In this document: positions 1 to 15,964 of the stretch, in pieces | How positions within the stretch are numbered: position 1 is the first letter of the stretch | Layout of the letters: each line of letters opens with the position of its first letter | Assembly: GCF_002294995.1 (NCBI RefSeq) | Contig: NZ_NSGF01000001.1 | Span: 558,001-622,000 of the forward strand | Source of the DNA: Mesorhizobium sp. WSM3860 | GTDB taxonomy: Bacteria > Pseudomonadota > Alphaproteobacteria > Rhizobiales > Rhizobiaceae | Length of the DNA stretch: 64,000 bases | Reading direction: 5' to 3' | Notes under the pieces: model-generated | The model's database searches: none | Told to the model about the DNA's origin: nothing | Seen by the model: the letters and a program-made list of their open reading frames with translations, nothing else | Translations under genes and position numbers: made by a program

Positions 1-972
1 AAGCTGTTCATCGAGGGCACGCCGGGCGGTCACATCGACATGCCGCGCGCCAAAAAGGGCGGTTTTGCCGGCGGCATGTTCGCGATCTTTCCGCCGCCGA
101 TCGAAAAGACCAAGCGCAGCGCCGTGCCGCCGGCGCCGAGCGACAACGAACCGCTGCCGCCGGAACTGCCGCGCGCCGAGGCGGTCGCTTCGACCATCGG
201 CATGGCCTCGATCCTGTTCAGGCTCGAGCGCGCCGGCGCGCTGACCGTCTGCCGCAGTGCCGGTGATGTGCGCAAGGCGATGGCGAATGGCTCGATCGCC
301 GCGGTGTTCCATATCGAAGGCGTCGAGGCGATCGATCCCGAGCTTGCCATGCTCGACGTGCTTCATGCCGCCGGGCTCCGCTCGCTGGGCATCGTCTGGA
401 GCCGGCCGAACGCCTTCGGCAACGGCGTCCCGTTCCGCTTTCCCTCGTCGCCCGATACCGGGCCGGGCCTGACCGACGCCGGCAAGGCGCTGGTCAAGGC
501 GTGCAACCAGCTCAGGATCATGATCGACCTCTCGCATCTCAACGAAAAGGGTTTTCGCGATGTCGCCGCGCTCAGCGATGCGCCGCTGGTCGCGACCCAC
601 TCCAACGTCCATGCGATCTGCGGCCATTCGCGCAACCTCACCGACTGGCAGCTCGGTGCGATCCGCGAAACGGGCGGAATGGTGGGCCTGAATTTCGCCA
701 CCGGCTTCCTGCGCGAGGACGGCCGCATGAATGCCGACACCAGCCTCGACATCATGCTGCGCCACATCGAGTCTCTGTTGCAGGCGCTGGGCGAGGACGG
801 CGTGGGTCTCGGATCCGATTTCGACGGTGCCATGATCCCTGCCGTGATCGGCGACGTGGCAGGCTTGCCGAAGCTCCTCGACGCCCTCGCCGCTCGCGGC
901 TTCGGGCGCGCGCTGATCGAGAAGATCGCTTATCGGAATTGGCTGAGTGTCCTTGAAAGGACGATCGGTTGA
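1..972 (+). CDS. Membrane dipeptidase, peptidase family M19 (5' end outside the window)
   Basis: The reading frame is open from base 1, so the start codon and first residues lie upstream. The zinc-dependent M19 (renal dipeptidase) family hydrolyses dipeptides and related amides. Visible family features are the loop after the missing N-terminal His-x-Asp site (TPGGHIDMPRAKKGGFAGG), the metal-bridging Glu in FHIEGVEAI, the metal His in VATHSNVHA and the Asp motif GLGSDFDGAM near the C-terminus. The C-terminal RALIEKIAYRNWL is typical. It points toward the convergent amine-catabolism operon, and a long palindrome directly after the stop probably ends transcription from both sides. M19 genes recur beside N-demethylase genes in other bacteria, as I recall, so a role in the same pathway is plausible but unproven. 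Confidence 0.9.
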   Translation, partial: KLFIEGTPGGHIDMPRAKKGGFAGGMFAIFPPPIEKTKRSAVPPAPSDNEPLPPELPRAEAVASTIGMASILFRLERAGALTVCRSAGDVRKAMANGSIAAVFHIEGVEAIDPELAMLDVLHAAGLRSLGIVWSRPNAFGNGVPFRFPSSPDTGPGLTDAGKALVKACNQLRIMIDLSHLNEKGFRDVAALSDAPLVATHSNVHAICGHSRNLTDWQLGAIRETGGMVGLNFATGFLREDGRMNADTSLDIMLRHIESLLQALGEDGVGLGSDFDGAMIPAVIGDVAGLPKLLDALAARGFGRALIEKIAYRNWLSVLERTIG

Positions 973-974
973 GA

Positions 975-1111
975 CCCTGTCGATATTCAGGTGATGCCGG
1001 CCTGCAAACAGTGGCTCTCTGCGCTTCCGGTGCTCACGTACTTAAGTACGCTCCGCTCCGGTTCTCGAGAGCCACTGTTTTCGACTTGGCCTGACCTGAA
1101 TCTCGACAGGG
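975..1111. repeat. Long imperfect palindrome (BIME-like hairpin)
   Basis: The outer arms CCCTGTCGATATTCAGGT and ACCTGAATCTCGACAGGG are near-perfect complements. Inner arms CAGTGGCTCTC and GAGAGCCACTG also pair, and the centre contains the self-complementary CGTACTTAAGTACG. The element fills the gap between two convergent genes and could terminate both. A truncated copy of the left half occurs at 50448-50498, so it is a dispersed element and not specific to this locus. Confidence 0.85.
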
Positions 1112-1123
1112 CTTGGCGCGCTG

Positions 1124-1333
1124 TCAGCCGTAGCCCATCCGCTTAAGCCATTCCCTGCCGACACCGCGGTCGCGGATGATCGGCAAGGGGTCTTCATGGT
1201 CGAGCCGGGCGCAGATGCGGTAGACCTCCAGCGTCTCGGCATCCATCTCGCCGCGCTTGAAGAAGAACATCGCCGCCGCATAGCGGGTGCGGCCGGACCA
1301 CATCTCGCCGAGCGGCGTGTTGACCAGCTCCAC
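1124..1333 (-). CDS. Small conserved-looking protein of unknown function, possibly 5'-frameshifted
   Basis: This 69-residue ORF from a GTG start has good codon bias and reads as a compact soluble protein (PLGEMWSGRTRYAAAMFFF, then GVGREWLKRMGYG at the C-terminus). It lies directly downstream of the GcvT-like gene. A GTG at 1383, one base after that gene's stop, opens a well-biased frame (VEGDADRLDAEAEAAEQ) that runs into this ORF in another phase. A single missing base near 1334-1339 would join them into about 86 residues. I do not recognise the family. It could be a real short protein starting at 1333 or the 3' part of a frameshifted gene. Confidence 0.5.
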   Translation of the reverse strand: MELVNTPLGEMWSGRTRYAAAMFFFKRGEMDAETLEVYRICARLDHEDPLPIIRDRGVGREWLKRMGYG

Positions 1334-1384
1334 TGCTCGGCCGCTTCCGCCTCCGCGTCCAGCCTGTCCGCATCCCCTTCCACG

Positions 1385-2614
1385 TCAAAAATCCGCCGGC
1401 GGGTTGGCGGTGCGGCGGTCGAGCTTGATGAAAGGCCGCGGCACCACTTTCGCCCGCTTCATCAGCTTCTGGTACTGCAGCTCGCGCATGGCATAGATCT
1501 CGACCCAGAGGTCGTCGACGACCGTATCGCCGTAGGGCCGTTGCAAGGAGGCGATGGCGACGTTGCGCTTGGCCATGGGGGACCACATCGCCGCGCTGAC
1601 CAGCCCGACCTCCCGGCTCTTCTTGCAGTAGACGATGGCGTGCTCGGCCGGAATGTTGCCTTCGATCTCCAGCCCGACCAGCACATGGCGCAGCTTCTTC
1701 TTCGCGCGCGCTTCGAAGATTGCGCGGCGCCCGTTGAAGTGGCCTTTGTCCGGATCGATCATGAAGCCGAGGCCGATCTCGTCCGGCATGCGCAGGCGGT
1801 CGGCACGGATGGCATGCTCGGCGGTGGTGAAGTCGGCATTTGCGACGATCAGCCCGGCTTCGAGCCGCGCCCCGTTCAGCGCCGTGTAACCGATGGCGCG
1901 GATGCCGCGCAGCTCGCCCGCCGCCATCAGCCGGTCCCATAGGCTCAACGCATTGTCCGCCGGCACGAACAGCTCGTAGCCGAGATCGCCAGTGAAGCCG
2001 GTGCGCGAGATGGTGACGGCAGCGCCGTCATGCGCGAATTCGGCAAGGTCGAAGATCTTCAACCGCTCGACGCCGGCAAAGCCCGCGTGGCGAAGGATGG
2101 CGAAGGAGGTCGGGCCTTGCAGCGCGAGCCCGGCGACCGCTTCGGTTTCTTCCTCGACGCTCACCTCATAGCCGATGGCGCTATCGAGCAGCCAGGGCAG
2201 ATGCCGCTCCTGCGAGCACAGCCGAAAGCGCGTCGGCGACAGCCGGAACAGCGTGCCGTCATCGAGCACGAAACCCTCGTCGTCGCACCAAGCGGTGTAG
2301 TGAACGCGGCCAGGCTTCAGCCTCGTCACGTCGCGCAGCGTGACACGGTCGAGATAGGCTTCGGCGTCCGGACCCTCGATCCGGTATTTGGTCATCGGCG
2401 AGATGTCGAAGAGTGCCGCCTGGCTGCGAATGGCAAAATATTCCAGCTCCTCGTCCCACAGCGAATGCGGCGCGCGGTAGCCGGCCCAGTTGTACCAGTC
2501 GTTTGTCAGCGCCAGCGCGTCGATGCGCGGCTGGAAAGGTGTGCCGAGCCGCAGCGTGCGGAAGTGGGCTTGCGCAAGCGTGCGGGCGGAATTGATTTTC
2601 ACATGACGATTCAT
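1385..2614 (-). CDS. GcvT-family aminomethyltransferase (folate-binding one-carbon acceptor)
   Basis: This 409-residue protein resembles glycine-cleavage T protein and the C-terminal half of dimethylglycine/sarcosine dehydrogenases, which pass a one-carbon unit to tetrahydrofolate. Typical segments are ALFDISPMTKYRIEGPDA, the beta-hairpin region ending TLFRLSPTRFRLC, DLGYELFVPADNALSLWDR and GARLEAGLIVAN. I chose the ATG at 2614 because AAGGA precedes it by about 9 bases. The longer frame to 2707 runs through repeat DNA. It belongs to the minus-strand operon with the two FAD oxidoreductases. In context it probably captures formaldehyde or methylene groups released from N-methyl compounds. It is not a standard gcvT, since no gcvH or gcvP is nearby and homology to canonical GcvT looks distant. 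Confidence 0.85.
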   Translation of the reverse strand: MNRHVKINSARTLAQAHFRTLRLGTPFQPRIDALALTNDWYNWAGYRAPHSLWDEELEYFAIRSQAALFDISPMTKYRIEGPDAEAYLDRVTLRDVTRLKPGRVHYTAWCDDEGFVLDDGTLFRLSPTRFRLCSQERHLPWLLDSAIGYEVSVEEETEAVAGLALQGPTSFAILRHAGFAGVERLKIFDLAEFAHDGAAVTISRTGFTGDLGYELFVPADNALSLWDRLMAAGELRGIRAIGYTALNGARLEAGLIVANADFTTAEHAIRADRLRMPDEIGLGFMIDPDKGHFNGRRAIFEARAKKKLRHVLVGLEIEGNIPAEHAIVYCKKSREVGLVSAAMWSPMAKRNVAIASLQRPYGDTVVDDLWVEIYAMRELQYQKLMKRAKVVPRPFIKLDRRTANPPADF

Positions 2615-2628
2615 GACGGCGTTCCTTC

Positions 2629-2679
2629 GCGCCCCCCTGTGTCCTGCCGGACATCTCCCCCACAAGGGGGGAGATCGGC
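2629..2679. repeat. Palindromic intergenic repeat, left member of an inverted pair
   Basis: The core is a perfect stem, ATCTCCCCC-ACAA-GGGGGGAGAT (2653-2675). The left flank GCGCCCCCCTGTGTCCTGCC reappears inverted at 2771-2790 in the second member. The pair fills the gap between the second FAD oxidoreductase gene and the GcvT-like gene and may attenuate transcription. The core recurs at 14686-14708. Confidence 0.85.
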
Positions 2680-2741
2680 CGTCACGCCAGCTTTCACCAA
2701 TCGCCAACGTTGCAAGGGGTGGGCCAGGCGTGTGGACAGCT

Positions 2742-2790
2742 GATCTCCCCCCTCGTGGGGGAGATGGCCGGCAGGCCAGAGGGGGGCGCC
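2742..2790. repeat. Palindromic intergenic repeat, right member of an inverted pair
   Basis: The stem ATCTCCCCC-CTCGTG-GGGGAGAT (2743-2765) is followed by a flank that is the reverse complement of the flank of the 2629-2679 element, with a few mismatches. The two elements form a head-to-head arrangement about 160 bp long. Confidence 0.85.
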
Positions 2791-2825
2791 GTAGGGCGTG
2801 AATTCAGCGATTTGCAAAAACATCT

Positions 2826-4400
2826 CTACGCCCTCATCGCGATGATGCGGCGGGCGGCGTTGAGGCCGGGGGCGCCGGAGATGCCGCCGCCCGGATGCGA
2901 GCCGGCGCCGGCAAGGAACAGCCCTTCGAGCGGCGTGTCGTAGCCCGACCAGCCGGAGACCGGCCGCGACATCAGCATCTGGTCGGCCTGCAATTCGCCG
3001 TGGTGCCAGTGGCCGCCGGGCATGCGGTAGCGTGCCTCGAGGTCGGCCGGAGTCAGCAACTCGGCATGGCGCACCGTGGCGCCGATGCCAGGCGCATACG
3101 CCTCGAGCTGCGCCATGATCGCCTCGAGGAATCGCGGCTTGCCGGCGGCCCAGCCTTCTCTCAGCGCATAGGGCGCGTATTGCACCACCGCGGAGAGCAC
3201 GCAGGCGCCGGACGGCGCGAGCGAAGGATCAGCAAGACTGGGCAGCGTGATTTCCATCACCGGCTCGGGCGAGAACGCGCCATATTTCGACGGATTGAAG
3301 GCGCGCTCGACATGGTCGGGCGAGGGCGCGATGACGAGGCGCCCCTCGTGGCCAGCGTCGTCGACGCCGGCGAATTGCGGCGGCCGGTCCAGCGCCAGAT
3401 GCAGCTTCGCCGCATCGCCCTTCATGCGGATATTCTTCACCTTGCGCATGAAACCGGTGTCGACCTCGCGCGGCCCGACCAGATCGAGGATCGTGGTTGC
3501 GGGATTGATGGCCGAGACGACGCTTTTTGCGCGCAGCGCTTCGCCGTCCTGTGTGAGGACACCGACGACGCGCCCCGTCTCGACGATGACGTTGGCGACC
3601 GGCGAAGCCTGGCGGATCGAAACGCCCGCTTTCTCGGCCGCCGAGCGGATGGCGGCAACGACCGCGCCCATGCCACCTTTGGGCTGTATCTGCGCGCCGG
3701 CGAGGCCGCCGATCTCGCCGGCCAGCCGATAGTAGAGGCCGAGCAGCGATGTCGGCGAGCGCGGCCCGAGATGGCTGCCCAGTGTCGCGTCGAAAGCGAG
3801 CAGGCCTTTCAGCCTGTCGTCGGAAAGCTGCTCGTCGAGCAGGTCGTAGACATTCATCAAGAGTATGCGCAGGAAGTCGCGCATATCCTCCTTGCCGAGC
3901 TTTTTCAGCGCCAGCGCGGTCTGGCCGAGCCCGGTCATTTCGGCGAGCGACATGCCGGCAAGGTCCGGTGGGCGGCGCGACAGGAAGGGTTTCAGCACGC
4001 CGGCGTAGCGCAACAGCTGCGCGCGCAGGTCCCGCCAAGCCGATTGCTCCGACGGGCTGGCGCCGGTCAGCGCCTCGCCATAGGCGCCGTGCAGCACCAG
4101 CGGGCCGTCTTTCGACAATGCGACCGACGGCACGAAATCGCCGCGCTCGATCTTCAGCCCGTGGCGCTCGAGCTCCAGCGTCTTCACCACATCGGGATGC
4201 AGGCGATTGAGCAGATGAGCGACCGAGGAGACGCGAAAGCCCGGCGCGAATTCTTCGGTGCGCGCCGCGCCGCCGACCTCGTTGCCGGCCTCGAGCAGCA
4301 GCACCTTGCGTCCCGATTTCGCCAGCGTGGCGGCGGCAACCAGGCCGTTGTGGCCGCCGCCGATGACGATCGCGTCCCAGTTCAGATTAGATGACGTCAT
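2826..4400 (-). CDS. FAD-dependent oxidoreductase, phytoene-desaturase/PYROXD2-like
   Basis: This 524-residue flavoprotein begins with a dinucleotide-binding fold (WDAIVIGGGHNGLVAAATLA, then EVGGAARTEE) and ends with the C-terminal FAD signature GSHPGGGISGAPGLNAARRI. That pattern is typical of PYROXD2-like amino-oxidase or carotenoid-desaturase relatives, whose substrates are mostly unknown. It starts inside the end of the upstream gene (14-bp overlap), so the two are co-transcribed and probably translationally coupled. The upstream protein is a paralogue with the same layout. There are no other carotenoid genes nearby, so a role in amine or betaine oxidation is more likely than carotenoid desaturation. 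The exact reaction cannot be read from sequence. Confidence 0.85.
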   Translation of the reverse strand: MTSSNLNWDAIVIGGGHNGLVAAATLAKSGRKVLLLEAGNEVGGAARTEEFAPGFRVSSVAHLLNRLHPDVVKTLELERHGLKIERGDFVPSVALSKDGPLVLHGAYGEALTGASPSEQSAWRDLRAQLLRYAGVLKPFLSRRPPDLAGMSLAEMTGLGQTALALKKLGKEDMRDFLRILLMNVYDLLDEQLSDDRLKGLLAFDATLGSHLGPRSPTSLLGLYYRLAGEIGGLAGAQIQPKGGMGAVVAAIRSAAEKAGVSIRQASPVANVIVETGRVVGVLTQDGEALRAKSVVSAINPATTILDLVGPREVDTGFMRKVKNIRMKGDAAKLHLALDRPPQFAGVDDAGHEGRLVIAPSPDHVERAFNPSKYGAFSPEPVMEITLPSLADPSLAPSGACVLSAVVQYAPYALREGWAAGKPRFLEAIMAQLEAYAPGIGATVRHAELLTPADLEARYRMPGGHWHHGELQADQMLMSRPVSGWSGYDTPLEGLFLAGAGSHPGGGISGAPGLNAARRIIAMRA

Positions 4401-6006
4401 GGGCCGGGCTCATATGCAAAGTTGGCTTGGCGAGGTCGCGCAGGATCTCGGCGGCGGCGTTGCGTCCAGGCGCGCCCATGACGCCGCCGCCCGGATGAGT
4501 GGAGGAGCCGCACATATAGAGCCCGCCGACCGGCGAGCGGTATTGCGCGTAGCCCGGCACCGGGCGATTGAAGAGCAACTGATCAAAGGTCAGCTCGCCA
4601 TGAAAAATATTGCCTTCGGTGAGGCCGACCTCGGCCTCGATCTCGCGCGGCGTGCGCACCTCCATATGGACGATGCGGTCGCGGAAGCCGGGCGAATATT
4701 CGGCGATCTGCGCAATCACGCTTTCGGCGAAGCCGTCGCGGTCGGCGTCGGTCCAGTCGCGCCCGGCGATCTTGGGTGGCGCATATTGCACGAAGCAGCT
4801 CATGAAATGCTTGCCCGGCGGCGCCATGGTCGGGTCGAGCGTGGTCGGGATCACCATGTCGAGGAAGGGATCGGCCGACCAGCGTCCGGCCTTCCAGTCG
4901 TCGTAGGCGCGCTCCATGCGCTCGATGGAATCGGTGAAGTGCATGTCGGCGCGGTAGACCGGCGGGTCCTTCGGCAGAGCCGGGAATTCCGGAAGCGAAT
5001 CGAGCGCGATGTTGACCTTGCCGGACGAACCCCTGATCTTGAAGTTCCTGACGCGCCGAAGGAAGATGTCGGGCAGCTCCTTCTCCTCGACCAGCTTCAG
5101 GAAGGTGCGCTTCACGTCGGCGTTTGAGACGACGAGCTTGCCGTGGATCTCGTCGCCGCCGGCCAGCACGACGCCCTTGGCCCTGCCGTTCCTGATCAGC
5201 ACGCGCTCGACCTCGGCGCCGGTGCGGATCGTGCCGCCGGAGGCCTTGAATGAGGCGGCGAGCGCCTTGGTCACGGCACCCATACCGCCACGCGCATAGC
5301 CCCAGGCGCCCACCGAGCCATCGACCTCGCCCATATAGTGGTGGAGAAGGACATAGGCCGTGCCGGGCGACATGGGCCCAAGCGCCGTGCCGATGATGCC
5401 GGAGAGCGCAAAGTTCGCCTTGATAACGTCGGTCTCGAAATACTCGTCGAGGAAGTCGGAGATCGACATCGTCCAGAAGCGCAGGGTCAGCGCCATTTCC
5501 TCGGCGGTGAGACCGGCGAATTTCCTGCCGAGATAGAGCAACTCGCCAAGATCGCGCGGCTTGAAGCTGGTGGGATCGGGCGCGGTGCGCATCAACAGCG
5601 GCTGGATGAAGCGGCATTGCCGGCTGACGTCACGCGCGTAGCGGTCGTAGGCCTCGGCGTCGCGCTTGGAGAAACGGGCGAATTCGCGGCGATGCGCATC
5701 GTGGTCGCGGTAGTTGGCGAGATAATCGCCGTCGCGCGTGAACACCGCGCCGCCTTCATAGGAGATCACCTGCAGGCCGAAGCGCGGCAGTTCCAGATCG
5801 CGCATGATCTCGGGCCGGAACAGCGAGCAGACATAGGAGCAGTTGGAGTAGAGAAAGCCCGGCGTCAGCTCGCGGCTGGTAGCCGCACCGCCGACCCAGT
5901 CGTTCTTCTCGACCACCAGCACGTCGAGCCCGCCGCGCTGCAGATAGCAGGCGTTAACCAGTCCGTTGTGGCCGCCGCCGATGACGATCGCGTCCCATGC
6001 CTTCAT
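4387..6006 (-). CDS. FAD-dependent oxidoreductase, PYROXD2-like (first gene of the minus operon)
   Basis: This 539-residue protein has an N-terminal FAD-binding motif (WDAIVIGGGHNGLVNACYLQ) followed by NDWVGGAATSRELTPGF, and a C-terminal signature GSSTHPGGGVMGAPGRNAAA. The start at 6006 is supported by GGGAGG about 11 bases upstream. It leads an operon continuing into its paralogue and the GcvT-like gene. The promoter region is shared with the divergent methyltransferase-betI-like operon and contains one copy of the BetI-type inverted repeat (6102-6117). The substrate is unknown. A two-subunit or sequential oxidation with the neighbouring paralogue is possible. Confidence 0.87.
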   Translation of the reverse strand: MKAWDAIVIGGGHNGLVNACYLQRGGLDVLVVEKNDWVGGAATSRELTPGFLYSNCSYVCSLFRPEIMRDLELPRFGLQVISYEGGAVFTRDGDYLANYRDHDAHRREFARFSKRDAEAYDRYARDVSRQCRFIQPLLMRTAPDPTSFKPRDLGELLYLGRKFAGLTAEEMALTLRFWTMSISDFLDEYFETDVIKANFALSGIIGTALGPMSPGTAYVLLHHYMGEVDGSVGAWGYARGGMGAVTKALAASFKASGGTIRTGAEVERVLIRNGRAKGVVLAGGDEIHGKLVVSNADVKRTFLKLVEEKELPDIFLRRVRNFKIRGSSGKVNIALDSLPEFPALPKDPPVYRADMHFTDSIERMERAYDDWKAGRWSADPFLDMVIPTTLDPTMAPPGKHFMSCFVQYAPPKIAGRDWTDADRDGFAESVIAQIAEYSPGFRDRIVHMEVRTPREIEAEVGLTEGNIFHGELTFDQLLFNRPVPGYAQYRSPVGGLYMCGSSTHPGGGVMGAPGRNAAAEILRDLAKPTLHMSPAHDVI

Positions 6007-6101: not shown

Positions 6102-6117
6102 TTGAATGAATGTTCAA
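6102..6117. promoter_or_regulatory. Candidate BetI-type operator, site 1
   Basis: TTGAATGAATGTTCAA is an imperfect inverted repeat (outer TTGAA/TTCAA) lying about midway between divergent genes starting at 6006 and 6218. It matches the perfect repeat at 15949-15964 in 13 of 16 positions. A TetR protein of the BetI type is encoded 0.9 kb away. Binding is inferred. Confidence 0.65.
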
Positions 6118-6217: not shown

Positions 6218-7012
6218 ATGATCGAAACGGCTAACGCCGAGCCGGAATATGACGACGCGGCCATTCGCTTCCTCGAAGCGCTCTGGGGCAATGGCTACCT
6301 GTCGCCGGGCGGCCCGGACGAAGTGGACCGCGTGGTCGAAGGCCTCTCGCTCAAGGGCAAGACGATCCTCGATATCGGCTGCGGCGCTGGCGGCATCACG
6401 CTGCATCTGGTCGCGCGCCATGGTGCGGCGCTTGCGACCGGTTTCGATGTCGAGAGGCCGGTGATCGAGACGGCAAGGCGACGCGCCATCACGCAAAAGC
6501 TCGAAGACCGCGTCAGCTTCGTTCAGGCGCCGCCTGGACCGCTGCCGTTCGCGGATGCTTCCTTCGACGTCGTCTTCTCCAAGGACGCGCTGCTGCATGT
6601 GCGGGACAAGGATGCGCTGTTCGCCGAGATCTTCCGCGTGCTCAAGCCCGGCGGCGTCTTCGCCGCGTCGAACTGGATGATCTCGCATGACGGTGAGCCG
6701 TCTGCGGACATGAAGGCCTATCTCGCGGCGGAAGACTTGTCCTTTGCTATGGCTTCACCGGCGCGCTACGCCGAAGCGATGCGTTGTGCTGGCTTCCGCG
6801 ACATCAGCGTCCGCGACCGCAACGCATGGTACCGCGAGGTGGCGCGGGAGGAACTGGAGCGCCTGAAGGGGCCACTCTATCAAGCGGTCGCCGCCGCGGT
6901 CGGCGCGGCCTATGTCGACAAGAACATCTGGACCTGGGAGGCGATGCAGAAGGTGCTTGACAGTGGTGAGCACCGCCCCACTCATCTGCGCGGTTGGAAG
7001 CCGGTCGGATAG
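6218..7012 (+). CDS. Class I SAM-dependent methyltransferase
   Basis: This 264-residue protein contains methyltransferase motif I ([18 protein letters not shown]), an acidic residue after the second strand (ATGFDVERP), the [19 protein letters not shown] segment and the [13 protein letters not shown] strand. This is the UbiE/type-11 small-molecule methyltransferase pattern. A GAGGCTGAG Shine-Dalgarno precedes the ATG. It is the first gene of a plus-strand operon running to 10158, with the BetI-like repressor gene 6 bases downstream. It might methylate a pathway intermediate or recycle methyl groups. Glycine/sarcosine N-methyltransferase-like activity would fit a betaine context but is not demonstrated by the sequence. 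Confidence 0.85.
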
Positions 7013-7018
7013 CCGGCA

Positions 7019-7768: not shown

Positions 7769-8851
7769 ATGAAGAAACTCAGCCGACGCCTGACACTGAC
7801 ATTGGCGCTCGCCGGCGCGCTGGCGGCTTCAGCGGCGGCGTTCGCCGTTGCCGCCGACAACGACCTCATCGTGTTCGACTGGTCCGGCTATGAGGACCCG
7901 AGCTTCCATGGCAAATATGTCGAGAAGGACGGCGACTCGCCGACCTTCGCCTTCTTCGGCGACGAGGACGAGGCATTCGAGAAGATCCGCTCCGGCTTCA
8001 AGGCCGACCTCGGCCATCCCTGCTCGCAAAGCGTGGTGAAGTGGCGCGAGGCGGGACTGCTGCAGCCGCTCGACACCTCCAGGATCGCCGGCTGGAAGGA
8101 CCTCAACCCCGGCATCATGGCGATGAAGGATCTTGCCACCACTCCTGACGGCAAAGCTTGGTTCATGCCTTGGGACTGGGGTGACACGCAGCTCACCTTC
8201 AACTCCGACAAGATCGCCGAGAAGGATGTGCAGTCGCTGAAGGCCTTCGCCGATCCCAAGTACAAGGGACGTGTCTCGATCGGCGACAATGTCGACGACG
8301 CCTATGCGCTGGCCAGTCTCGCCATCGGGCTCAAAGACTGGACAAAGATGACGGACGAGCAGTTCAAGCAGGCGTCCGATTTCCTGCGCCAGGTGCACAA
8401 GAACGTGCGCTCCTACTGGACCGACACCACCGACATCGTGCAACTGCTCTCCGGCGGCGAGGTCGATCTGGCCTGGGCCTGGAACGACGCGGCGGTGCAA
8501 TCGCAGGCCGCTGGCGTGCCGATCAAGTCCAAGAAGGATACCGACGAGGGCATTTCGACCTGGGTATGTGGCTATGTGCTGTTCAAGGACGCGCCCGGCA
8601 ACGTTGACAAGGCCTATGATTATCTCAACGCCGTCAATGACCCGGAGGTCGCCAAGGTGCTGGTCAAGGACTGGGGCTACGGCCAAGCCAATGCCAAGGG
8701 CATGGCCGGTGTCGACCAGGCGGTGCTCAAGGAAAAGGGCTACGACAACGTGGAAAAATGGGTCGACAAGACGTTGTTCCAGCAGCCGCTGCCTTCCGAG
8801 CTCAAGCTGAAGATGATCGCCGAGTTCGAGAAGATCAAGGCCGGCTATTGA
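7769..8851 (+). CDS. Periplasmic substrate-binding protein of a polyamine-type ABC importer (PotD/PotF-like)
   Basis: The 360-residue protein has a signal peptide (basic MKKLSRRLT, hydrophobic LTLALAGALAASAAAFAVA, cleavage near AVAA-DND). The mature part shows the spermidine/putrescine-binding fold: DLIVFDWSGYEDPSF, VVKWREAGLLQPLDTS, WGDTQLTFNSDKI, GGEVDLAWAWNDAA. Aromatic residues (DWSGY, PWDWGD, AWAWND) would suit cation-pi binding of a quaternary ammonium or polyamine. It lies 63 bases after the repressor gene and overlaps the amine oxidase start by 4 bases. Its partner permeases and ATPase are in a separate minus-strand operon. The ligand is not determinable by eye. Confidence 0.9.
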   Translation: MKKLSRRLTLTLALAGALAASAAAFAVAADNDLIVFDWSGYEDPSFHGKYVEKDGDSPTFAFFGDEDEAFEKIRSGFKADLGHPCSQSVVKWREAGLLQPLDTSRIAGWKDLNPGIMAMKDLATTPDGKAWFMPWDWGDTQLTFNSDKIAEKDVQSLKAFADPKYKGRVSIGDNVDDAYALASLAIGLKDWTKMTDEQFKQASDFLRQVHKNVRSYWTDTTDIVQLLSGGEVDLAWAWNDAAVQSQAAGVPIKSKKDTDEGISTWVCGYVLFKDAPGNVDKAYDYLNAVNDPEVAKVLVKDWGYGQANAKGMAGVDQAVLKEKGYDNVEKWVDKTLFQQPLPSELKLKMIAEFEKIKAGY

Positions 8852-10158
8852 ACAGCAAGATCGAAAGAACCGACGTCGCAACCGTCGGCGCCGGCTTCAC
8901 CGGCCTGTCGGCCGCGCTCGAATTGAAGCGCGCCGGCGTCGATTTCCTTGTCCTGGAGGCACGCGACCGCGTCGGCGGCCGTGTGGAAGGTATGCGAAAC
9001 GGGCTCGGCGAACTGATCGACAGCGGCGGCCAATTCCTGTGCGAGGACATGCCGGAGCTGATGGCGCTCGCCAGGGCGCGCGGCAAGACCTTCGTCAAAA
9101 CCTATGTCGATGGCGATTTCATCACCCATCCGCCGATGTCGGTCGACCAGGCCGGGCGGACCTATGTGACCGCGATGGCGATCCGCGACCGCATGAACTG
9201 GATCGAGCCAGACGATCCCGCGATCTCCGGGCTGACCGTCGCCTCCTGGCTCGAACGTCAGACGGACCCGGTCGATGCCAAGGCCGCCTTCCGCTCGATG
9301 ATCGAAGGACTGTGGTGCCTGGCGCTGGAAAAGGTGCCGCTCTGGTACCTGATCGACAATGATCGCCGCATCACCAACGAAGTGCCGGAACTGCAATATT
9401 CTCTGCGCGAGACCATGCAGTCGCTGGCCGAGGACCTGGCGGGCGATCTCGGTGACCGGCTGCGGCTGAACGAGCCGATCATTCGCATCGAGCGCGGGCC
9501 GTCTGGCGTTCGTGTTGTGTCCGGCAGCCGCGCCGTCGAGGCGCGCGAGGTCCTGGTCGCGCTGCCGCCTGCGACGGCCAACAGGCTAGACTTTCGGCCT
9601 GCCTTGCCGGCGCCCTTGAAGAAGGCGCTCGGCGTCTGGGAGAGCGGCGCGGTGGTCAAGATCCTCGTCCGCTATGCCAGGCCGTTCTGGCGCGAGCGCG
9701 ACCTGAGCGGCATGGTGATGTGGCGCGACATGCCGGGCCTGTTTGCCTGCGACGCCAGCAGGGATGCTGAGCATGCAGCGCTCGTCGTCTTCATCGGTGG
9801 GCCGCTGGCGCTGCGCTGCCGCAAGCTGAGCGCTGCGGCGTTGCGCGCCGAGGTCACGGCGAAACTCGCTGATGCGCTCGGTCCGGACGCGGCCGAAATC
9901 CTCGATTTCAACCAGCGCGACTGGGCGGATGACCGCTGGAGCGGCGGCGCCTATAGCGATCTCATCGTCGACGTGACGGCAAGAGATGCCGAGCGCACGA
10001 TCCTTGCCGGCGCGCCGCCGATCCATTTTGCGTCTTCGGAATTGTCGCCGTCCTTCCCTGCCTATGTCGAGGGCGCGATCGTGGCCGGGCGCATCGCCGC
10101 CGGGAAGATCTTGGCGCGGCTTCAGTCCGCCATCGCCACCAGAGCCTCTGGGTCGTAG
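8848..10158 (+). CDS. FAD-dependent amine oxidase (monoamine oxidase family)
   Basis: This 436-residue flavoprotein has the FAD fold VGAGFTGLSAALELKRAGVD followed by FLVLEARDRVGGR, a substrate-domain region (IEGLWCLALEKVPLWYLI) and a C-terminal FAD contact (SPSFPAYVEGAIVAGRIAA). MAO-family enzymes oxidise primary, secondary or N-methyl amines to imines. I chose the TTG at 8848 because TTGA overlaps the upstream stop and AAGG sits about 7 bases before it. Upstream in-frame codons lie inside the binding-protein gene. Its 3' end overlaps the convergent ATPase gene by 37 bases. Probable role: oxidation of the imported amine. Confidence 0.87.
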   Translation: MNSKIERTDVATVGAGFTGLSAALELKRAGVDFLVLEARDRVGGRVEGMRNGLGELIDSGGQFLCEDMPELMALARARGKTFVKTYVDGDFITHPPMSVDQAGRTYVTAMAIRDRMNWIEPDDPAISGLTVASWLERQTDPVDAKAAFRSMIEGLWCLALEKVPLWYLIDNDRRITNEVPELQYSLRETMQSLAEDLAGDLGDRLRLNEPIIRIERGPSGVRVVSGSRAVEAREVLVALPPATANRLDFRPALPAPLKKALGVWESGAVVKILVRYARPFWRERDLSGMVMWRDMPGLFACDASRDAEHAALVVFIGGPLALRCRKLSAAALRAEVTAKLADALGPDAAEILDFNQRDWADDRWSGGAYSDLIVDVTARDAERTILAGAPPIHFASSELSPSFPAYVEGAIVAGRIAAGKILARLQSAIATRASGS

Positions 10159-11240
10159 GCGAGGCGGATCGGCGCGCCGACCGGAATGTCGTCGGCGCCG
10201 AAATCATTGGTCTCGGTCACCGAGAGCGGCTTTTCCAGCCCCGGTATTTCGACGATCAGATGCGTGATCTCGCCGAAATAGTGGCGCTCGACCACCTTGC
10301 CGGCGACCTCGAACTTCGCCGTCGCATTGTCCCAGAGCACGCGCAGCCGCTCCGGCCGGATGCCAAGCGTCGCCGCGCCGCCGTTGCGCACGAAGGCCTT
10401 CGGCTTGTCGGTCCTCACACGCCCGAAGCCAAGCGTGTCGACAACCAAGGACGCGTCGTTCTCCTCGACGATCTCGGCCTTGACGAAATTCATGCCGCCG
10501 AGGAAGTCGGCGACCTGGCGGTTGACCGGGCGCTGGTAGATTTCCTTGGGCGAGGCGACCTGCGCGATACGACCGCCGAACATGACGGCGATGCGATCCG
10601 ACATGGCCAAAGCCTCATACTGGTCGTGCGTGACAAGCACGAAGGTGATGCCGACCGCCTGCTGCAGCCGGCGCAACTCGACCTGCATCTGCTCGCGCAG
10701 CTTCTTGTCGAGTGCCGAAAGCGGCTCGTCGAGCAGCAACACCTTCGGACGCATGACCAGCGCGCGGGCGAGCGCCACGCGCTGACGCTGGCCGCCGGAG
10801 AGTTCGGTGGCGCGGCGCTTGCCCAGGCCGGTCAGCGACACCTGCTCCAGCGCCTCCTCGACGCGGCGCTTTTCTTCGCCGCTTTGGAGTTTCAGCCGCT
10901 TCAGCCCATAGGCGACATTCTGCTCGACGTTGAGATGCGGAAAGATCGCGTAGCTCTGGAAGACCATGTTGGTCGGACGCCGGTTGGCGGGGATGCCGTC
11001 CATCGGCTGGCCGTCGACGGCGATCGAGCCGCTGGTCGGCGTATCGAACCCGGCGATCATGCGCAAAAGCGTGGTCTTGCCGCAGCCGGACGGCCCGAGC
11101 AGCGAGAAGAACTCGCCTTTCCCAATGCTGAGCGAGGCATTGTCCAGCGCCTTGAATGCGCCGTAGCTGCGCGTGACGTCGCGGATGTCGATAATGGTAC
11201 AATCGGTTTGGATGCGCTCGGACTGGACCCGCTCAAGCAT
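10122..11240 (-). CDS. ABC transporter ATP-binding protein, polyamine type (PotA-like)
   Basis: This 372-residue ATPase has Walker A (LLGPSGCGKTTLLRMIAGFD), signature TELSGGQRQRVALARALV, Walker B (KVLLLDEPLSALDKKLREQ), an H-loop (LVTHDQYEALAMSD) and a C-terminal TOBE-type domain (TLGIRPERLRV). The ATG at 11240 follows GGGAGG by 6 bases. It is the last gene of a minus-strand operon with two permeases and overlaps the preceding permease stop by 8 bases. Together with the binding protein at 7769 it completes an importer. The 3' end overlaps the convergent amine oxidase gene by 37 bases, leaving no room for separate terminators. Confidence 0.93.
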   Translation of the reverse strand: MLERVQSERIQTDCTIIDIRDVTRSYGAFKALDNASLSIGKGEFFSLLGPSGCGKTTLLRMIAGFDTPTSGSIAVDGQPMDGIPANRRPTNMVFQSYAIFPHLNVEQNVAYGLKRLKLQSGEEKRRVEEALEQVSLTGLGKRRATELSGGQRQRVALARALVMRPKVLLLDEPLSALDKKLREQMQVELRRLQQAVGITFVLVTHDQYEALAMSDRIAVMFGGRIAQVASPKEIYQRPVNRQVADFLGGMNFVKAEIVEENDASLVVDTLGFGRVRTDKPKAFVRNGGAATLGIRPERLRVLWDNATAKFEVAGKVVERHYFGEITHLIVEIPGLEKPLSVTETNDFGADDIPVGAPIRLAYDPEALVAMAD

Positions 11241-12054
11241 AGAGGCCTCCCTGGTTCTGGGTGCGTCTCGCCGCGCGGCGGCGCAGGATTTCGGCAACGG
11301 TCATCAGCACGAAAGACGCCACCAGCAGCAGGGTGCCGAGCGCCAGCACGCCGGGGAGCTTGGCCGCGAAGCGCAACTGACCCCAGATGTAGATCGGCAG
11401 CGTCGCCTCGGTGCCGGTGAGGAAGAAGGCGATGATGAACTCGTCGAGCGAGATGGTGAAGCAGACCAGCAGGCTGGAGATGATCGCCGGCGCCACCATC
11501 GGCAGCGTCACCCGCCGGAAGGTGCCGAAGGCGCTTTCACCGAGATCGGCAGAGGCTTCCTCGAGGCTGCGGTCGAACCCTTCGAAGCCGGAGGTCAGCA
11601 CCGTCATCGAGTAGGGGATGCAGACCAGCACATGCCCAAGCACGACGGTGAACAGCGACAGGCTCAAGCCCAGTTGCAGCATCACCAAGAGCATCGAGAT
11701 GGCGACGATGACCTCGGGCAGCACCAGCGGTGCCATGATCAGCCCGTTGACGGTGCGGCGGCCGGGATAGCGGTAGCGGGTGATCGAACGAGCGGCGAGA
11801 ATGCCGAACACGGTCGACAGGATTGCGGCCGAGACGCCGACAGCCAAGCTGTTCCAGGTGGCGTCGATCAGCGCCGGCGTGCGCGGCAAGTCCTCATACC
11901 AATGCAGTGTGACGCCGGAGAGCGGGAATTTCGGCGTCGCCGCGGTGTTGATCGAGAAGATCGGCAGGAAGATCACCGGCAAATAGAGGAAGAGGATGTA
12001 GAGCGCGGCGTAGCTCGACAGCCAGCTTGGCAGGTAGCGTCTGATCGCCGTCAT
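11233..12054 (-). CDS. ABC transporter permease (PotC-like)
   Basis: The 273-residue protein has about six hydrophobic segments, the first being AALYILFLYLPVIFLPIFSI. The EAA loop contacting the ATPase reads SLEEASADLGESAFGTFRRV with TLP following. The start ATG overlaps the upstream permease stop (ATGA). A longer open frame continues to 13080, but it is a shadow of the upstream gene. It is the inner-membrane half of the polyamine-type importer. Confidence 0.92.
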   Translation of the reverse strand: MTAIRRYLPSWLSSYAALYILFLYLPVIFLPIFSINTAATPKFPLSGVTLHWYEDLPRTPALIDATWNSLAVGVSAAILSTVFGILAARSITRYRYPGRRTVNGLIMAPLVLPEVIVAISMLLVMLQLGLSLSLFTVVLGHVLVCIPYSMTVLTSGFEGFDRSLEEASADLGESAFGTFRRVTLPMVAPAIISSLLVCFTISLDEFIIAFFLTGTEATLPIYIWGQLRFAAKLPGVLALGTLLLVASFVLMTVAEILRRRAARRTQNQGGLYA

Positions 12055-12968
12055 CGCGCCAGCCTCTGCAGCGCGCGGATGACCAGCACCGCGGCGCCGG
12101 CCATCAGCGAGACGATGATCATGGTGGTGACAGAGAGTGCTGCGCCGAGCGGCCAGTTCGACGCCTTGCCGAATTGCGCCTGGATGGCGTTGGCGATCAT
12201 GACGCCGTCTTTGCCGCCGACCAGCTTCGGCGTGACATAGTCGCCGACGGTCGGGATCATGACGATCAGCGCCGCCGAGATGACGCCCGGCGCCGACAGC
12301 GGCAAGGTCACGCGCAGGAAGGAGCGCAGCGGCCCGTCGCCGAGGTCGGTCGCCGCTTCGACCAGGGTGCGGTCGACTTTCTCCAGGGAAACGAAGATCG
12401 GCAGGACGGCGAAGGTCGCCCAGGCGTGAGTCAGCGTGATGATGACGGCGCTGGAATTGTAGAGCAGCGCGGTCGACGGCTCGTCGATGATGCCGAGGCC
12501 CATCAGGCCGGAATTGAGCACGCCGTTGTAGCCGAGGATCACCTTCCACGACATCACGCGCAGCAGGTAGCTGGTCCAGAACGGGATGGTGATGAGGAAC
12601 AGCCAGAGGCTCTTGTGGCGGCCGCCATGGAAGGAAATGAAATAGGCGATCGGATAGGCGAGCAGCACGGTGAGCAGGCTGACCGTCAGCGAGATGTAGA
12701 GCGAGCGCCAGAGCAGGTCGCGGTAGATCGGCTCGGTCAGCGCGATCCGATAATTCTCCAGCGTAAATGTGTGATCGATGGTGAGGTAGTCCTGCGTCCA
12801 GAAGGAATGGGCGATAACGACCAGGATCGGCAGGACGAGAAGGATGAGCGCGTAGAGGAAGGTCGGGCTGATCAGCGCAACGCCCTGGACGGCTTCCGAT
12901 TGCAGAAGGGCATTTCGTCTGCCCCCCGCCATGCGCAGCGGGGGCGACCCTTCCGCGGCGGCCGTCAT
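12051..12968 (-). CDS. ABC transporter permease (PotB-like)
   Basis: The 305-residue permease has hydrophobic segments such as LISPTFLYALILLVLPILVV and an EAA loop (LVEAATDLGDGPLRSFLRV-TLP). The start at 12968 is chosen for GGAG about 8 bases upstream; the longer frame adds an uncharged, Gly/Arg-rich tail without family character. It is the first gene of operon permease-permease-ATPase. The promoter region, shared with the divergent aminotransferase gene, contains the second BetI-type repeat (13155-13170). Confidence 0.92.
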   Translation of the reverse strand: MTAAAEGSPPLRMAGGRRNALLQSEAVQGVALISPTFLYALILLVLPILVVIAHSFWTQDYLTIDHTFTLENYRIALTEPIYRDLLWRSLYISLTVSLLTVLLAYPIAYFISFHGGRHKSLWLFLITIPFWTSYLLRVMSWKVILGYNGVLNSGLMGLGIIDEPSTALLYNSSAVIITLTHAWATFAVLPIFVSLEKVDRTLVEAATDLGDGPLRSFLRVTLPLSAPGVISAALIVMIPTVGDYVTPKLVGGKDGVMIANAIQAQFGKASNWPLGAALSVTTMIIVSLMAGAAVLVIRALQRLAR

Positions 12969-13154
12969 TGCAGCGCTCCGCGCGTGATTGCAGTTGCCGG
13001 CTCGGACTGTCCCGCCATGCGGCCTTCCCATTGATTGGCGCCGACTGCCTGTTCCCATTTTGCGTGCCTGGAGCGATCACTCCAGACTTGCCGGCTTTCT
13101 TTCATCATGAGCGCATCCGCCGATTGAAATCAAGCGCTGTTTCTGCAATATTGA

Positions 13155-13170
13155 TTGAATGGACATTCAG
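13155..13170. promoter_or_regulatory. Candidate BetI-type operator, site 2
   Basis: TTGAATGGACATTCAG contains the perfect inverted repeat TGAATG-GA-CATTCA. It lies between the divergent permease operon (start 12968) and the aminotransferase gene (start 13260). The flanking ATTGATTG extends the resemblance to BetI boxes as I remember them. Confidence 0.68.
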
Positions 13171-13259
13171 AATGAAGTGACGAAAAGCCGAATTTTCATG
13201 GTCTTCCGCTTCGTTTCATGTCTCTGGAAAATACCGCAACCGGACGATGCGAGGCTAAG

Positions 13260-14678
13260 ATGGCGGCTGCACGAGAGATCAAGGCGAGGGAAATTGTCGA
13301 GCCCGCGGACGACGATGCGGTCGAGCTGGCCAAGCGCCATCTGATCCAGCCCTGGCCCTATGCCGGTTCGGTCGGCGCCGAGGCGCGGGCGCTGATCGGC
13401 GAGGGCGAGGGCATCTACATAACCGACGCATCCGGCAAGCGGCTGATCGACGGTCCGGCCGGCATGTGGTGCATCAATGTCGGGCATCGCCGCGAGGAAC
13501 TGGCAAGGGTGATGTACGACCAGGCAATGGCGCTGTCCTACAACACGCCTTGGTACACAATGAACGCGCCCTCGGCCGAGCTTGCGAGGCGCATCGCGGA
13601 TGCCGCGCCGGGCGATCTCAGCCACACCTTCTTCACCACCGGCGGCTCGTCGGCGGTGGAGACCGCACTGCGCTTCATGCAGTTCTACAACAATGTGCGC
13701 GGCAGGCCGGAGAAGAAGCTGATCCTCAGCCGCAGCGGCGCCTATCACGGCTCGACCTACCTGTCGGCTTCGCTCAACGGCCGCCCGCGCGACCGGCACT
13801 GGATGGACGGCGCCGACGAGCTGGTGATCAAGCTCTCCTCGCCCGATCCGTTCCGGCGGCCGAAGGAGATGAGCATCGACGCCTTCACCGATTTCCTCGT
13901 CGACCAGTTCCGCGACACCGTCGCGCGCGTCGGCGCCGATCGCATCGGCGCCTTTGTCGGCGAGCCGGTGCAAGCTTCGGGCGGCGTCGTCCTGCCGCCG
14001 GACGGATACCTGAACCGCATCCGTGAGATCTGCCGCGAGAACGACATCCTCTATGTCTCGGACGAGGTGGTGACCGGCTTCGGACGGCTCGGCCATGTCT
14101 TTGCCTCGGGCGACGTGTTCGGCCTCGACCCGGACATGATCACCTTCGCCAAGGGGGTGACCTCGGGCTATTTCCCGCTTGGCGGCGTCATCATCTCCGA
14201 GCGGCTGCTGGAGCAACTGCGCCGCTCCAACCATCCCGGCGCCCTGTTCGGCCATGGCCTCACCTACACCAGCCACCCGATCGGCTGCGCCGTCGCGCTG
14301 AAGAACCTCGATCTTTTGGAAGAGGGCGTGCTCCAGCATGCGCGCGAGATCGCGCCTTATTTCCAGGCGCGGCTGAAGAGCCTCGAGGACTTGCCTCTGG
14401 TCGGCGAGGTGCGCGGCGCCGGCCTGATGGCGTGCGTCGAATGCGTCGCCGACCGCGAGAGCAAGGATCCGCTGCAGCTCGATAAGGATGTGGGAAAGCG
14501 TATCGACGCGCATTGCCACGAGCTCGGTCTCTTGGTGCGGCCGCTGATCAATATGTGCGTGATGTCGCCGCCGCTCATCATCAGCCGCGAGCAGGTCGAC
14601 GACATGGTCGCGATCCTGCGCGAAGGGATTTCAAGGACGATGGATGATTTGCGCAAGGAAGGGGTTTGGCGGGGGTGA
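13260..14678 (+). CDS. Class III (omega) aminotransferase
   Basis: This 472-residue PLP enzyme carries the fold-type I class III signatures: TTGGSSAVETALRF, SRSGAYHGSTYLSA, GAFVGEPVQASGGVV, the cofactor Asp in ILYVSDEVVTGFGR, and the Schiff-base Lys in MITFAKGVTSGYFPLGG. It resembles putrescine/omega-amino acid:pyruvate aminotransferases. The ATG at 13260 follows GAGG by 5 bases; an in-frame ATG at 13218 has no ribosome site. It stands alone as a transcript, divergent from the permease operon, with operator site 2 upstream and a palindromic repeat after the stop. Likely role: transamination of a terminal amino group, or of an aldehyde made by the amine oxidase. Confidence 0.92.
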   Translation: MAAAREIKAREIVEPADDDAVELAKRHLIQPWPYAGSVGAEARALIGEGEGIYITDASGKRLIDGPAGMWCINVGHRREELARVMYDQAMALSYNTPWYTMNAPSAELARRIADAAPGDLSHTFFTTGGSSAVETALRFMQFYNNVRGRPEKKLILSRSGAYHGSTYLSASLNGRPRDRHWMDGADELVIKLSSPDPFRRPKEMSIDAFTDFLVDQFRDTVARVGADRIGAFVGEPVQASGGVVLPPDGYLNRIREICRENDILYVSDEVVTGFGRLGHVFASGDVFGLDPDMITFAKGVTSGYFPLGGVIISERLLEQLRRSNHPGALFGHGLTYTSHPIGCAVALKNLDLLEEGVLQHAREIAPYFQARLKSLEDLPLVGEVRGAGLMACVECVADRESKDPLQLDKDVGKRIDAHCHELGLLVRPLINMCVMSPPLIISREQVDDMVAILREGISRTMDDLRKEGVWRG

Positions 14679-14685
14679 TTTGCTG

Positions 14686-14708
14686 ATCTCCCCCACGAGG
14701 GGGGAGAT
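14686..14708. repeat. Palindromic intergenic repeat
   Basis: Perfect stem ATCTCCCCC-ACGA-GGGGGGAGAT between the convergent aminotransferase and Rieske genes. It is the same core as the elements at 2653-2675 and 2743-2765. It could act as a bidirectional terminator or processing site. Confidence 0.85.
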
Positions 14709-14728
14709 TGGCAGTTCCAGCGCCTCAC

Positions 14729-15931
14729 CTATCCCCTCGACCGCAGCGCGTCGTTCAATCCCCACATGTCCTTTTCCTGCGGTGCGGTCTCCAAGTTCAG
14801 CACCGGCACCTGCCTGCGCAGATGGTCGTGGTGGGTGCGCACGCCATATTCGAGATCCGAGAGGTAGAAGCCCCCGAACGCCTCAGAGAGCATGGATTCG
14901 TTCGACCAGACGGAGAGCTTGACATCCTCGTTCATGGTGTCGCGGTCGATGCGGTAGGCAAGGTAGCGCGCCGCCGCCTGCTCCCGCGTCTCGTCCTTAT
15001 AGCGATAGATCGCGCCGCGCAGCAGCGTCTCGCCGGTGGACAGCGGGAACTCCTGATAGAACTGCACCGATTCCGGCATGATCGACAGCGCGTTGTTGGG
15101 GAAGATGCCGTAATAGATCCAGGCTTTGCGCAGATGCTCCGGCAGATGCGTCGGCTCGGGCGCTATTTTGATGTACCGGTTGACGCTCCAGCGCCGCCCG
15201 GCGTGCGGATTATAGGTGGCGAAGGACCGCGACACGCCGTTGACGAAGGGTTCGTCGAAATAGGTCGCGCCGTAGAGATCCTGCAGCGCCGGATGCGCCA
15301 TGGCGACGTGATAGCCCTCGTTGTCCACGTCGCGCACCGATTTCCAGTTGACGGGTGATTTCTGGGTCCAGATGCCCCAGCACGGCACCATGTCGGCAAC
15401 ATTGTAATGGGCGATCTCCGCTTCGATCGGCTTCAAGAGCTCGGCCACGGAAGGCTGCGGGCCGCCCTTGCGGAAGCGGATGAAGATGAAGCCCATCCAG
15501 ATTTCGAGGTCGAGCGGCATCAGGCCGAACTCGGTCTTGTCGAGTTCCGGGAAGGAGCGCGGACGGGCAGCACCCCGCAATGTGCCGTCGAGATTGTAGA
15601 CCCAGCCGTGGAAAGGGCAGATCAGCGCGTTCTTGCAAGTGCCCTGGCTGTCGGCGACGACGCGGCTGCCGCGATGGCGGCACATGTTATTGAAGGCACG
15701 CACGACGCCGTCCTTGCCGCGCACGATCAGCGCCCGCTCGCCGACGACGTCCATGGTCAGATAGTCGCCCGGATTTGGCACGTCGGCGACATGGCCGGCG
15801 ATCTGCCAGTGATTGCGGAAGACGTATTCCTTCTCAAGCTCAAGCAGGGCGTTGGAGTGGTAACTCCACCCCGGCAAACCTCGCCGGTCCCAATCGTTGG
15901 GGATCGCCACGTCACGGAGGTGCGGGTTCAT
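14729..15931 (-). CDS. Rieske non-heme iron oxygenase, alpha subunit (betaine/stachydrine demethylase-like)
   Basis: The 400-residue protein has the Rieske [2Fe-2S] site as C-R-H then C-P-F-H (CRHRGSRV, LICPFHGWVYNLDG) and a mononuclear iron site in VDNEGYHVAMAHP, including the bridging Asp. The group most resembles enzymes that hydroxylate N-methyl groups of glycine betaine, stachydrine or carnitine. The ATG at 15931 is preferred: the longer frame from 15982 would place operator site 3 inside the coding region. No ferredoxin or flavin reductase partner is encoded in the window, so electrons must come from elsewhere or from an unrecognised partner. Likely first step: N-demethylation. Confidence 0.88.
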   Translation of the reverse strand: MNPHLRDVAIPNDWDRRGLPGWSYHSNALLELEKEYVFRNHWQIAGHVADVPNPGDYLTMDVVGERALIVRGKDGVVRAFNNMCRHRGSRVVADSQGTCKNALICPFHGWVYNLDGTLRGAARPRSFPELDKTEFGLMPLDLEIWMGFIFIRFRKGGPQPSVAELLKPIEAEIAHYNVADMVPCWGIWTQKSPVNWKSVRDVDNEGYHVAMAHPALQDLYGATYFDEPFVNGVSRSFATYNPHAGRRWSVNRYIKIAPEPTHLPEHLRKAWIYYGIFPNNALSIMPESVQFYQEFPLSTGETLLRGAIYRYKDETREQAAARYLAYRIDRDTMNEDVKLSVWSNESMLSEAFGGFYLSDLEYGVRTHHDHLRRQVPVLNLETAPQEKDMWGLNDALRSRG

Positions 15932-15948
15932 AAAATGCTCTCGTTTTG

Positions 15949-15964
15949 TTGAATGCTCATTCAA
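15949..15964. promoter_or_regulatory. Candidate BetI-type operator, site 3 (perfect)
   Basis: TTGAATG-CT-CATTCAA is a perfect 7+2+7 inverted repeat ending 18 bases upstream of the Rieske ATG. A repressor here would overlap the promoter or leader. It is the best of the three copies in the cluster. Confidence 0.72.

Follow-up and report, generated by a model that had tools for sequence, protein, structure and literature searches.

What is the function of a block of Mesorhizobium genes that combines a polyamine-type importer, a Rieske oxygenase, several flavoproteins and a folate-binding protein? The block opens a 64,000-nucleotide stretch of Mesorhizobium sp. WSM3860 (contig NZ_NSGF01000001.1, positions 558,001 to 622,000; hereafter the window), in which the original prediction, made from the sequence alone, saw a candidate island for amine or betaine catabolism. 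Our analysis revealed a real, bounded and conserved gene set containing a recurring triad of two phytoene-desaturase-family flavoproteins, here called FADa and FADb, and a GcvT-like protein. On balance, we consider it probable that window positions ~1124 to 15964 (15 kb) are a dedicated catabolic regulon of a BetI-like TetR protein, in which an imported omega-N-methylated amine would undergo stepwise oxidative N-demethylation and then transamination.

Promoter palindromes and gene set

An inverted repeat shared by the island promoters was first spotted by eye and then counted. The pattern TTGAATGNNNNTTCA occurs in exactly three places in the 6.37-Mb genome, each an island promoter: between FADa and the methyltransferase and TetR genes, between a permease gene and the aminotransferase gene, and in front of the Rieske gene. 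By strand the genome matches number four, as one site reads both ways, and the backwards pattern gave none. TGAAN6TTCA was observed three times in the window against 0.45 expected, and a single shuffle in 100 attained that number. When up to one mismatch was tolerated, TGAATGNNNNTTCA matched the window five times by strand against 2.62 expected (9 of 100 shuffles reached five), and all five matches fell on the same three island sites.

The sites are conserved. Across 80 related loci on genome contigs, TGAAN6TTCA was located upstream of the Rieske gene in 80/80, of the aminotransferase gene in 67/67 and of FADa in 13/13 cases in which the promoter was present, with 20 other matches in the 1,480,605 bases of these loci. 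These 80 palindrome-bearing loci come mainly from one genus and are therefore not independent. All three sites are also kept on plasmids of Ensifer, Shinella and Rhizobium, at 68-72% Rieske identity, and in L036, L044, L053 and L067 the site is kept at the Rieske gene although the aminotransferase and transporter genes do not adjoin it. Because the palindrome is common to its promoters, the island is very probably one regulon, and we infer that the TetR protein binds the three palindromes. Like BetI, this protein has a BetI-type C-terminus and short inverted repeats at its own promoter, and it exceeds the cut-off of one BetI model (PRK00767, 126.3 vs 118 bits). Unlike BetI, it falls below the strict cut-off (TIGR03384, 124.6 vs 201.3 bits) and sits in the island rather than beside betA. 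Since palindrome 3 would lie inside the longer open reading frame (ORF), a Rieske start at 15931 was preferred over 15982.

All the parts named in the original prediction were recovered using ORFs, Pfam and NCBIfam, and are arranged as follows.

1..972, plus strand: M19 dipeptidase, 3' part (gene cut at its 5' end); PF01244 284 bits; nearest solved chains 3ly0/3fdg
~1124..1384, minus strand: small ORF of ~80 residues after GcvT, conserved in part of the relatives
1385..2614, minus strand: GcvT-like folate-binding protein (GcvT); PF01571 195.8 bits against a gathering score of 25.6
2826..4400, minus strand: FADb, phytoene-desaturase-family flavoprotein (Pfam, NCBIfam)
4387..6006, minus strand: FADa, phytoene-desaturase-family flavoprotein
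6102..6116: palindrome 1, proposed operator between FADa and the methyltransferase and TetR genes
6218..7012, plus strand: S-adenosylmethionine-dependent methyltransferase; PF08241
7019..7705, plus strand: TetR repressor with BetI-type C-terminus; PF13977
7769..8851, plus strand: PotD/PotF-type periplasmic binding protein (NCBIfam, fold)
8845..10158 (start approximate), plus strand: flavin amine oxidase, overlapping the binding-protein gene (Pfam)
10122..11240, minus strand: ATPase of an ATP-binding cassette (ABC) transporter, with TOBE_2 (Pfam)
11233..12030, minus strand: ABC permease 2 (Pfam)
12051..12965, minus strand: ABC permease 1 (Pfam)
13155..13169: palindrome 2, proposed operator between permease and aminotransferase genes
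13218..14678, plus strand: class III aminotransferase; PF00202 275 bits, PRK07036 725 bits (cut-off 618)
14729..15931, minus strand: Rieske non-haem iron oxygenase with bridging Glu; PF00355, PF00848
15949..15964: palindrome 3, proposed operator just upstream of the Rieske start

Homologs of these genes were not scattered. In 68 related loci that extend at least 9 kb beyond the Rieske gene, the aminotransferase, both permeases and the ATPase were present in 64, the binding protein in 58, the amine oxidase in 59, TetR in 57 and the methyltransferase in 50, some loci ending before the later genes. The triad, Rieske, aminotransferase, importer and TetR genes occurred together in 5/5 plasmid records of other genera, drawn from the seven best Rieske matches with H3 and H4 (also Shinella) left out; the eighth match, H8 (36% identity), carries the Rieske gene beside a FADa-like gene and no other core gene. 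Twenty control regions of 20 kb, taken from 20 genomes of the same draws, gave one aminotransferase match, with the other island families below threshold. The public contigs closest to the Rieske gene are from Mesorhizobium (best 98% over the matched part). Our searches of open-licence PMC papers listed no title describing the gene combination, and it is in this sense that we call the pathway undescribed; a homarine-type pathway, for which one paper was listed, was considered and not adopted.

The FADa-FADb-GcvT core

Among the proteins compared, FADa shows the strongest conservation in Ensifer, Shinella and Rhizobium, and its relatives were collected at three taxonomic depths: 77/385 genomes in a class search (E<=1e-60, at most three candidates per genome scored), 17/297 in an order search (E<=1e-150) and 13/398 in a phylum search (E<=1e-130), the last all from the same class. 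We took 20 class-search loci, seventeen with 53-70% FADa identity and three with 43-47%, and 16 order-search loci, excluding our own. Counts below use 33 of these 36 genome-drawn loci (L143-L145 left out) plus the five plasmid loci. FADb lay directly downstream of FADa on the same strand in 38/38 loci with close FADa relatives; it was counted by position, since FADa cross-matches FADb by score. The two genes overlap by 14 bases in the window, and in one of the 38 loci, L161, the FADb frame is broken. An FADb-GcvT fusion considered for L161 was dropped because the FADb pieces lie in different frames. GcvT was present in 31/33 genome-drawn loci and 5/5 plasmids (36/38), the two misses being contigs of 5.3 and 6.4 kb, and five further loci from the phylum search also carry the triad. 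Around it, the 33 genome-drawn loci contained the aminotransferase in 20, a PotA-type ATPase in 15, a PotD-type protein in 18 and TetR in 24, many loci ending before these genes. Rieske, aminotransferase and importer genes recur around the triad in part of the Alphaproteobacterial loci. We regard the triad as the core of the pathway and predict its chemistry from its relatives and context.

Neither flavoprotein scored as a carotenoid enzyme. FADa reached 307 bits with CrtO (cut-off 1000) and 137 with the CrtI family (cut-off 238), FADb reached 212 and 117 bits with the same models, and no carotenoid model listed attained its cut-off for either protein. The best 120 protein matches of FADa were named phytoene desaturase/dehydrogenase, amine oxidase or NAD(P)/FAD-dependent oxidoreductase, none of them being named with a function. 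Carotenoid desaturases and amine oxidases, together with further FAD enzymes, made up the best 60 of 163 matches of a profile search against solved structures and the 50 matches listed for each of two fold searches; PYROXD2 was named in none of these sets. The original prediction called both proteins PYROXD2-like, and they may belong with PYROXD2. Another contig of the genome (L168, G000:C21:9000-27000) encodes two weak relatives of FADa, at 27-30%, in the vicinity of large ORFs of 527 and 717 residues.

GcvT is one of 22 GCV_T matches in the genome. Its D119-G-T and RTGxTGDLGYE (204-214) motifs were invariant in 16/16 aligned proteins, and its best solved match was the GcvT part of trimethylamine N-oxide (TMAO) demethylase, Tdm. 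It scored 246 bits with the TMAO demethylase model NF053776 (cut-off 1100), matching only the C-terminal part (model positions 374-727 of 763), against 116 bits with the dimethylsulfoniopropionate (DMSP) demethylase model.

In heterotetrameric sarcosine oxidase and dimethylglycine oxidase/dehydrogenase, a GcvT domain couples the FAD-dependent oxidation of an N-methyl amine to folate; the island differs from them in its flavoprotein family and in that GcvT is a separate protein, and the SoxA alpha subunit model gave 141 bits, under its cut-off of 1164. DmmABC-DmmD and Tdm likewise pair an enzyme that oxidises N-methyl groups with a folate protein or domain of the GcvT type, according to an excerpt of PMC5520151. 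The island GcvT is nearest to the Tdm domain, whereas its partners, unlike those of either system, are two phytoene-desaturase-fold flavoproteins. We put forward, tentatively and as something short of probable, that FADa-FADb-GcvT may represent a new class of folate-linked N-demethylase, composed of a PYROXD2/phytoene-desaturase-type heterodimer and a separate GcvT. Alphaproteobacterial pathways would then share this constant core and differ in their interchangeable oxygenases, and the triad could offer a biochemical model for human PYROXD2.

Companion genes and island edges

The Rieske protein resembles the group V oxygenases CntA, GbcA and Stc2. Its Rieske and catalytic-iron ligands (C101, H103, C122, H125, H225, H230 and D353, including CxH/CxxH) were invariant in 17 aligned proteins, and its nearest solved structure is carnitine monooxygenase, CntA. 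The bridging Glu is E222 in DNEGYH; that of CntA is given as E205 in part of PMC7948474. Three Rieske catalytic domains were found in the genome, and the two other genes (L166, G000:C44; L167, G000:C49) have separate surroundings, one of them lying beside an aldehyde dehydrogenase-like ORF and an 825-residue ORF with a GcvT part. Four genomes carry a BetI-type TetR fused to a Rieske protein in single open frames: L133 2755-4686 (minus strand), L152 2729-4513 (plus strand), L155 12829-15081 (minus strand; found by BLAST only) and G163:C12:16253-18031 (genome search only). This arrangement suggests a sensor-enzyme comparable to PutA.

The importer is similar to PotABCD/YdcS in fold and gene composition, with a PotD score (PRK09501, 93.7 bits) under the cut-off of 582. 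What we take to be the Asp of the PotD pocket aligns with a Cys in the window binding protein. The binding-protein profile A7 mixes two subtypes, and its PotF bias was not used as evidence for a ligand. The window has one binding-protein gene; the 68 related loci have two in tandem in 49 (for example, L008 17234-19756), one in 9 and none in 10, some being cut by locus ends. The flavin amine oxidase is nearest to cyclohexylamine, putrescine and monoamine oxidases, and the solved structure nearest to the class III aminotransferase is 3i5t. Genes for the choline-to-betaine route, which the original prediction reported as absent, are indeed absent from the island; genome-wide the statement did not hold, as BetA is encoded elsewhere (865.6 bits vs a cut-off of 732.1).

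Some related loci differ in gene content. An MTTB-family gene, named for trimethylamine methyltransferase, adjoins the cluster in L130 (2673-4181, minus strand). A second cluster type contains a DMSP-lyase-family cupin and an amidohydrolase (L089 25207-27658, L156 707-3006) and uses another class III aminotransferase, HemL/GntE-like in L089.

The M19 dipeptidase had been counted as a pathway member. Its gene (L004, about 14914-15972) starts ~87 bases upstream of the window, and TGAAN6TTCA was absent from L004, which covers 15 kb upstream and the first 1.5 kb of the window. M19 stood beside the triad only within the same genus (4/33 loci and 0/5 plasmids, several loci ending before its expected place); in the phylum-search set it did so in L193, not in L189-L192. 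We therefore rejected its membership, and M19 is probably a neighbour outside the regulon. The small ORF at ~1124-1384 (minus strand) is frame-shifted in the window relative to its relatives, for which no Pfam or PHROG match was found.

Proposed route, substrate and alternatives

Import, N-demethylation and one-carbon capture fit the gene families, and on this point the original interpretation, partly supported overall, stands. In the route that we propose, the PotD-type importer would take up an amine with N-methyl groups on its terminal nitrogen, and TetR would most likely leave its three operators once the imported amine or a product binds. The Rieske enzyme would hydroxylate a methyl group of the most methylated form, with release of formaldehyde. 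The flavin amine oxidase may carry out the next step, which elsewhere among bacteria may fall to an Oxidored_FMN protein in some cases. FADa and FADb would jointly oxidise a remaining N-methyl to the methylene level, GcvT would trap the methylene as 5,10-methylene-tetrahydrofolate, and the class III enzyme would transaminate the freed primary amine to an aldehyde that is then oxidised. The order of steps, electron partners and substrate are, like the triad chemistry, predictions.

Several leads point to a terminal N-methyl amine ending as a primary amine, none of them decisive. Besides the class III aminotransferase itself, there is L142, a short contig beyond which an aminotransferase may lie; here GcvT is immediately followed by a glutamine-synthetase-like protein, in the place that the aminotransferase takes in L128-L130. 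The best models for this protein are type III glutamine synthetase and then gamma-glutamylputrescine synthetase, both far below cut-off. L126 encodes an aldehyde dehydrogenase with PuuC as best model, below cut-off. Oxidored_FMN proteins, presumably trimethylamine dehydrogenase-like in domain architecture, occur in L087, L090, L126, L130 and L157. Since the three leads other than the aminotransferase are weak, we keep our confidence in the proposed route only a little above even. Human genetics supplies a further context: PYROXD2 variants account for about half of the variance of N6-methyllysine and N6,N6-dimethyllysine (excerpt of PMC8109053), an association reported as replicated in part of PMC9730628, and have been linked to trimethylamine in urine and dimethylamine in plasma in an excerpt of PMC3169529. 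In a literature search for PYROXD2 as a demethylase, the name PYROXD2 was absent from the 10 of 30 papers listed. Our guess for the substrate is a methyl-lysine-type compound or an N-methylated polyamine first, and an omega-amino-acid betaine second.

A number of observations weigh against this reading. L143-L145, which have 43-47% FADa identity and lie outside the counts, lack a neighbouring FADb, and L138, L140 and L141 carry the triad without any other island family. Among the matches listed, the FADa fold is closest to a carotenoid desaturase, so its amine chemistry rests on context. The Rieske protein departs from group V. At the position of CntA residue 203, where group Va has Tyr/Phe and Vb Asn, it has Asp, as do L087, L088, L089, L090, L153 and L160; it also reads GYHV instead of CYHC and thus lacks the Cys pair, a Cys-X-X-Cys beside the iron being called unique to some Rieske members in an excerpt of PMC10952381. 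A quaternary substrate is therefore not signalled. No Rieske reductase was found in the island, and the two PF00175 genes of the genome, one with Fer2, FAD and NAD domains, are unlinked to it; a candidate reductase of 353 residues is encoded on contig C15. In 8/22 genomes a Rieske relative lay no more than 10 kb from a FADa match (up to three candidates per genome scored), and the Rieske protein reached threshold in 9/33 genome-drawn loci. The aminotransferases of L089 and L132 are HemL/GntE-type, and the Oxidored_FMN proteins of L126 and L087 scored best with mycofactocin and bile-acid reductase models, below cut-off, rather than with amine dehydrogenase. The methyltransferase has no clear job in the route. 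In 28 other loci, TGAAN6TTCA was present at 12/28 FADa, 3/7 Rieske and 8/12 aminotransferase promoters and missing at 16/28, 4/7 and 4/12, so that many distant clusters are without the site. Of nine loci tried for common palindromes, L090 (two places), L130 and L161 have TTGAGCGCTCAA in its place; it was not found in L128, L129, L089, L126, L142 or L127.

The alternative that survives best, unlikely as we judge it, is that the island acts on an omega-amino-acid betaine (beta-alanine betaine, gamma-butyrobetaine, valerobetaine or carnitine) that is fully demethylated before the class III enzyme makes a semialdehyde. Class III aminotransferases act on omega-amino acids. The carnitine monooxygenase match of the Rieske protein, the BetI-like repressor, and the MTTB and CntA-type Rieske proteins of some relatives are consistent with such a substrate, as is the binding of gamma-aminobutyric acid by PotD-fold chains (8jv1, 4eq7); the Rieske residues described above do not signal a quaternary one.

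We consider it quite improbable that the target of GcvT is an O- or S-methyl group, as it is for LigM and DmdA, while the flavoproteins desaturate an unrelated skeleton, the substrate being a methylated plant metabolite and not primarily an N-methyl amine. DMSP and vanillate demethylases are among the GcvT relatives, FADa resembles carotenoid desaturases, and the related clusters L089 and L156 contain the DMSP-lyase-family cupin. However, the top GcvT model is TMAO demethylase, well above that for DMSP, both flavoproteins fall under every carotenoid cut-off listed, and the set includes a polyamine-type importer, an amine oxidase, an aminotransferase and a BetI-like repressor. A detoxification or osmolyte-balancing island, in which the methyltransferase makes a methylated compound that the other enzymes recycle, is the least probable of all: that gene does lie behind palindrome 1 and weakly resembles sarcosine/dimethylglycine methyltransferase (66.5 bits, under the cut-off of 550), but it reached at least 150 bits in only 11/33 genome-drawn loci and 2/5 plasmids, whereas the triad is nearly constant.

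With a regulon for N-methyl amine catabolism as the preferred reading, a suggestive gene list gains defined limits, exact candidate operators and a constant core of three genes, and becomes a regulon that can be put to the test. Databases label the two core flavoproteins phytoene desaturase or dehydrogenase. Should the core prove to be a folate-linked demethylase, this annotation would be corrected and methylated-amine catabolism would gain an enzyme architecture; a methylated amine on which rhizobia draw would also be indicated, along with a possible handle on the function of human PYROXD2.

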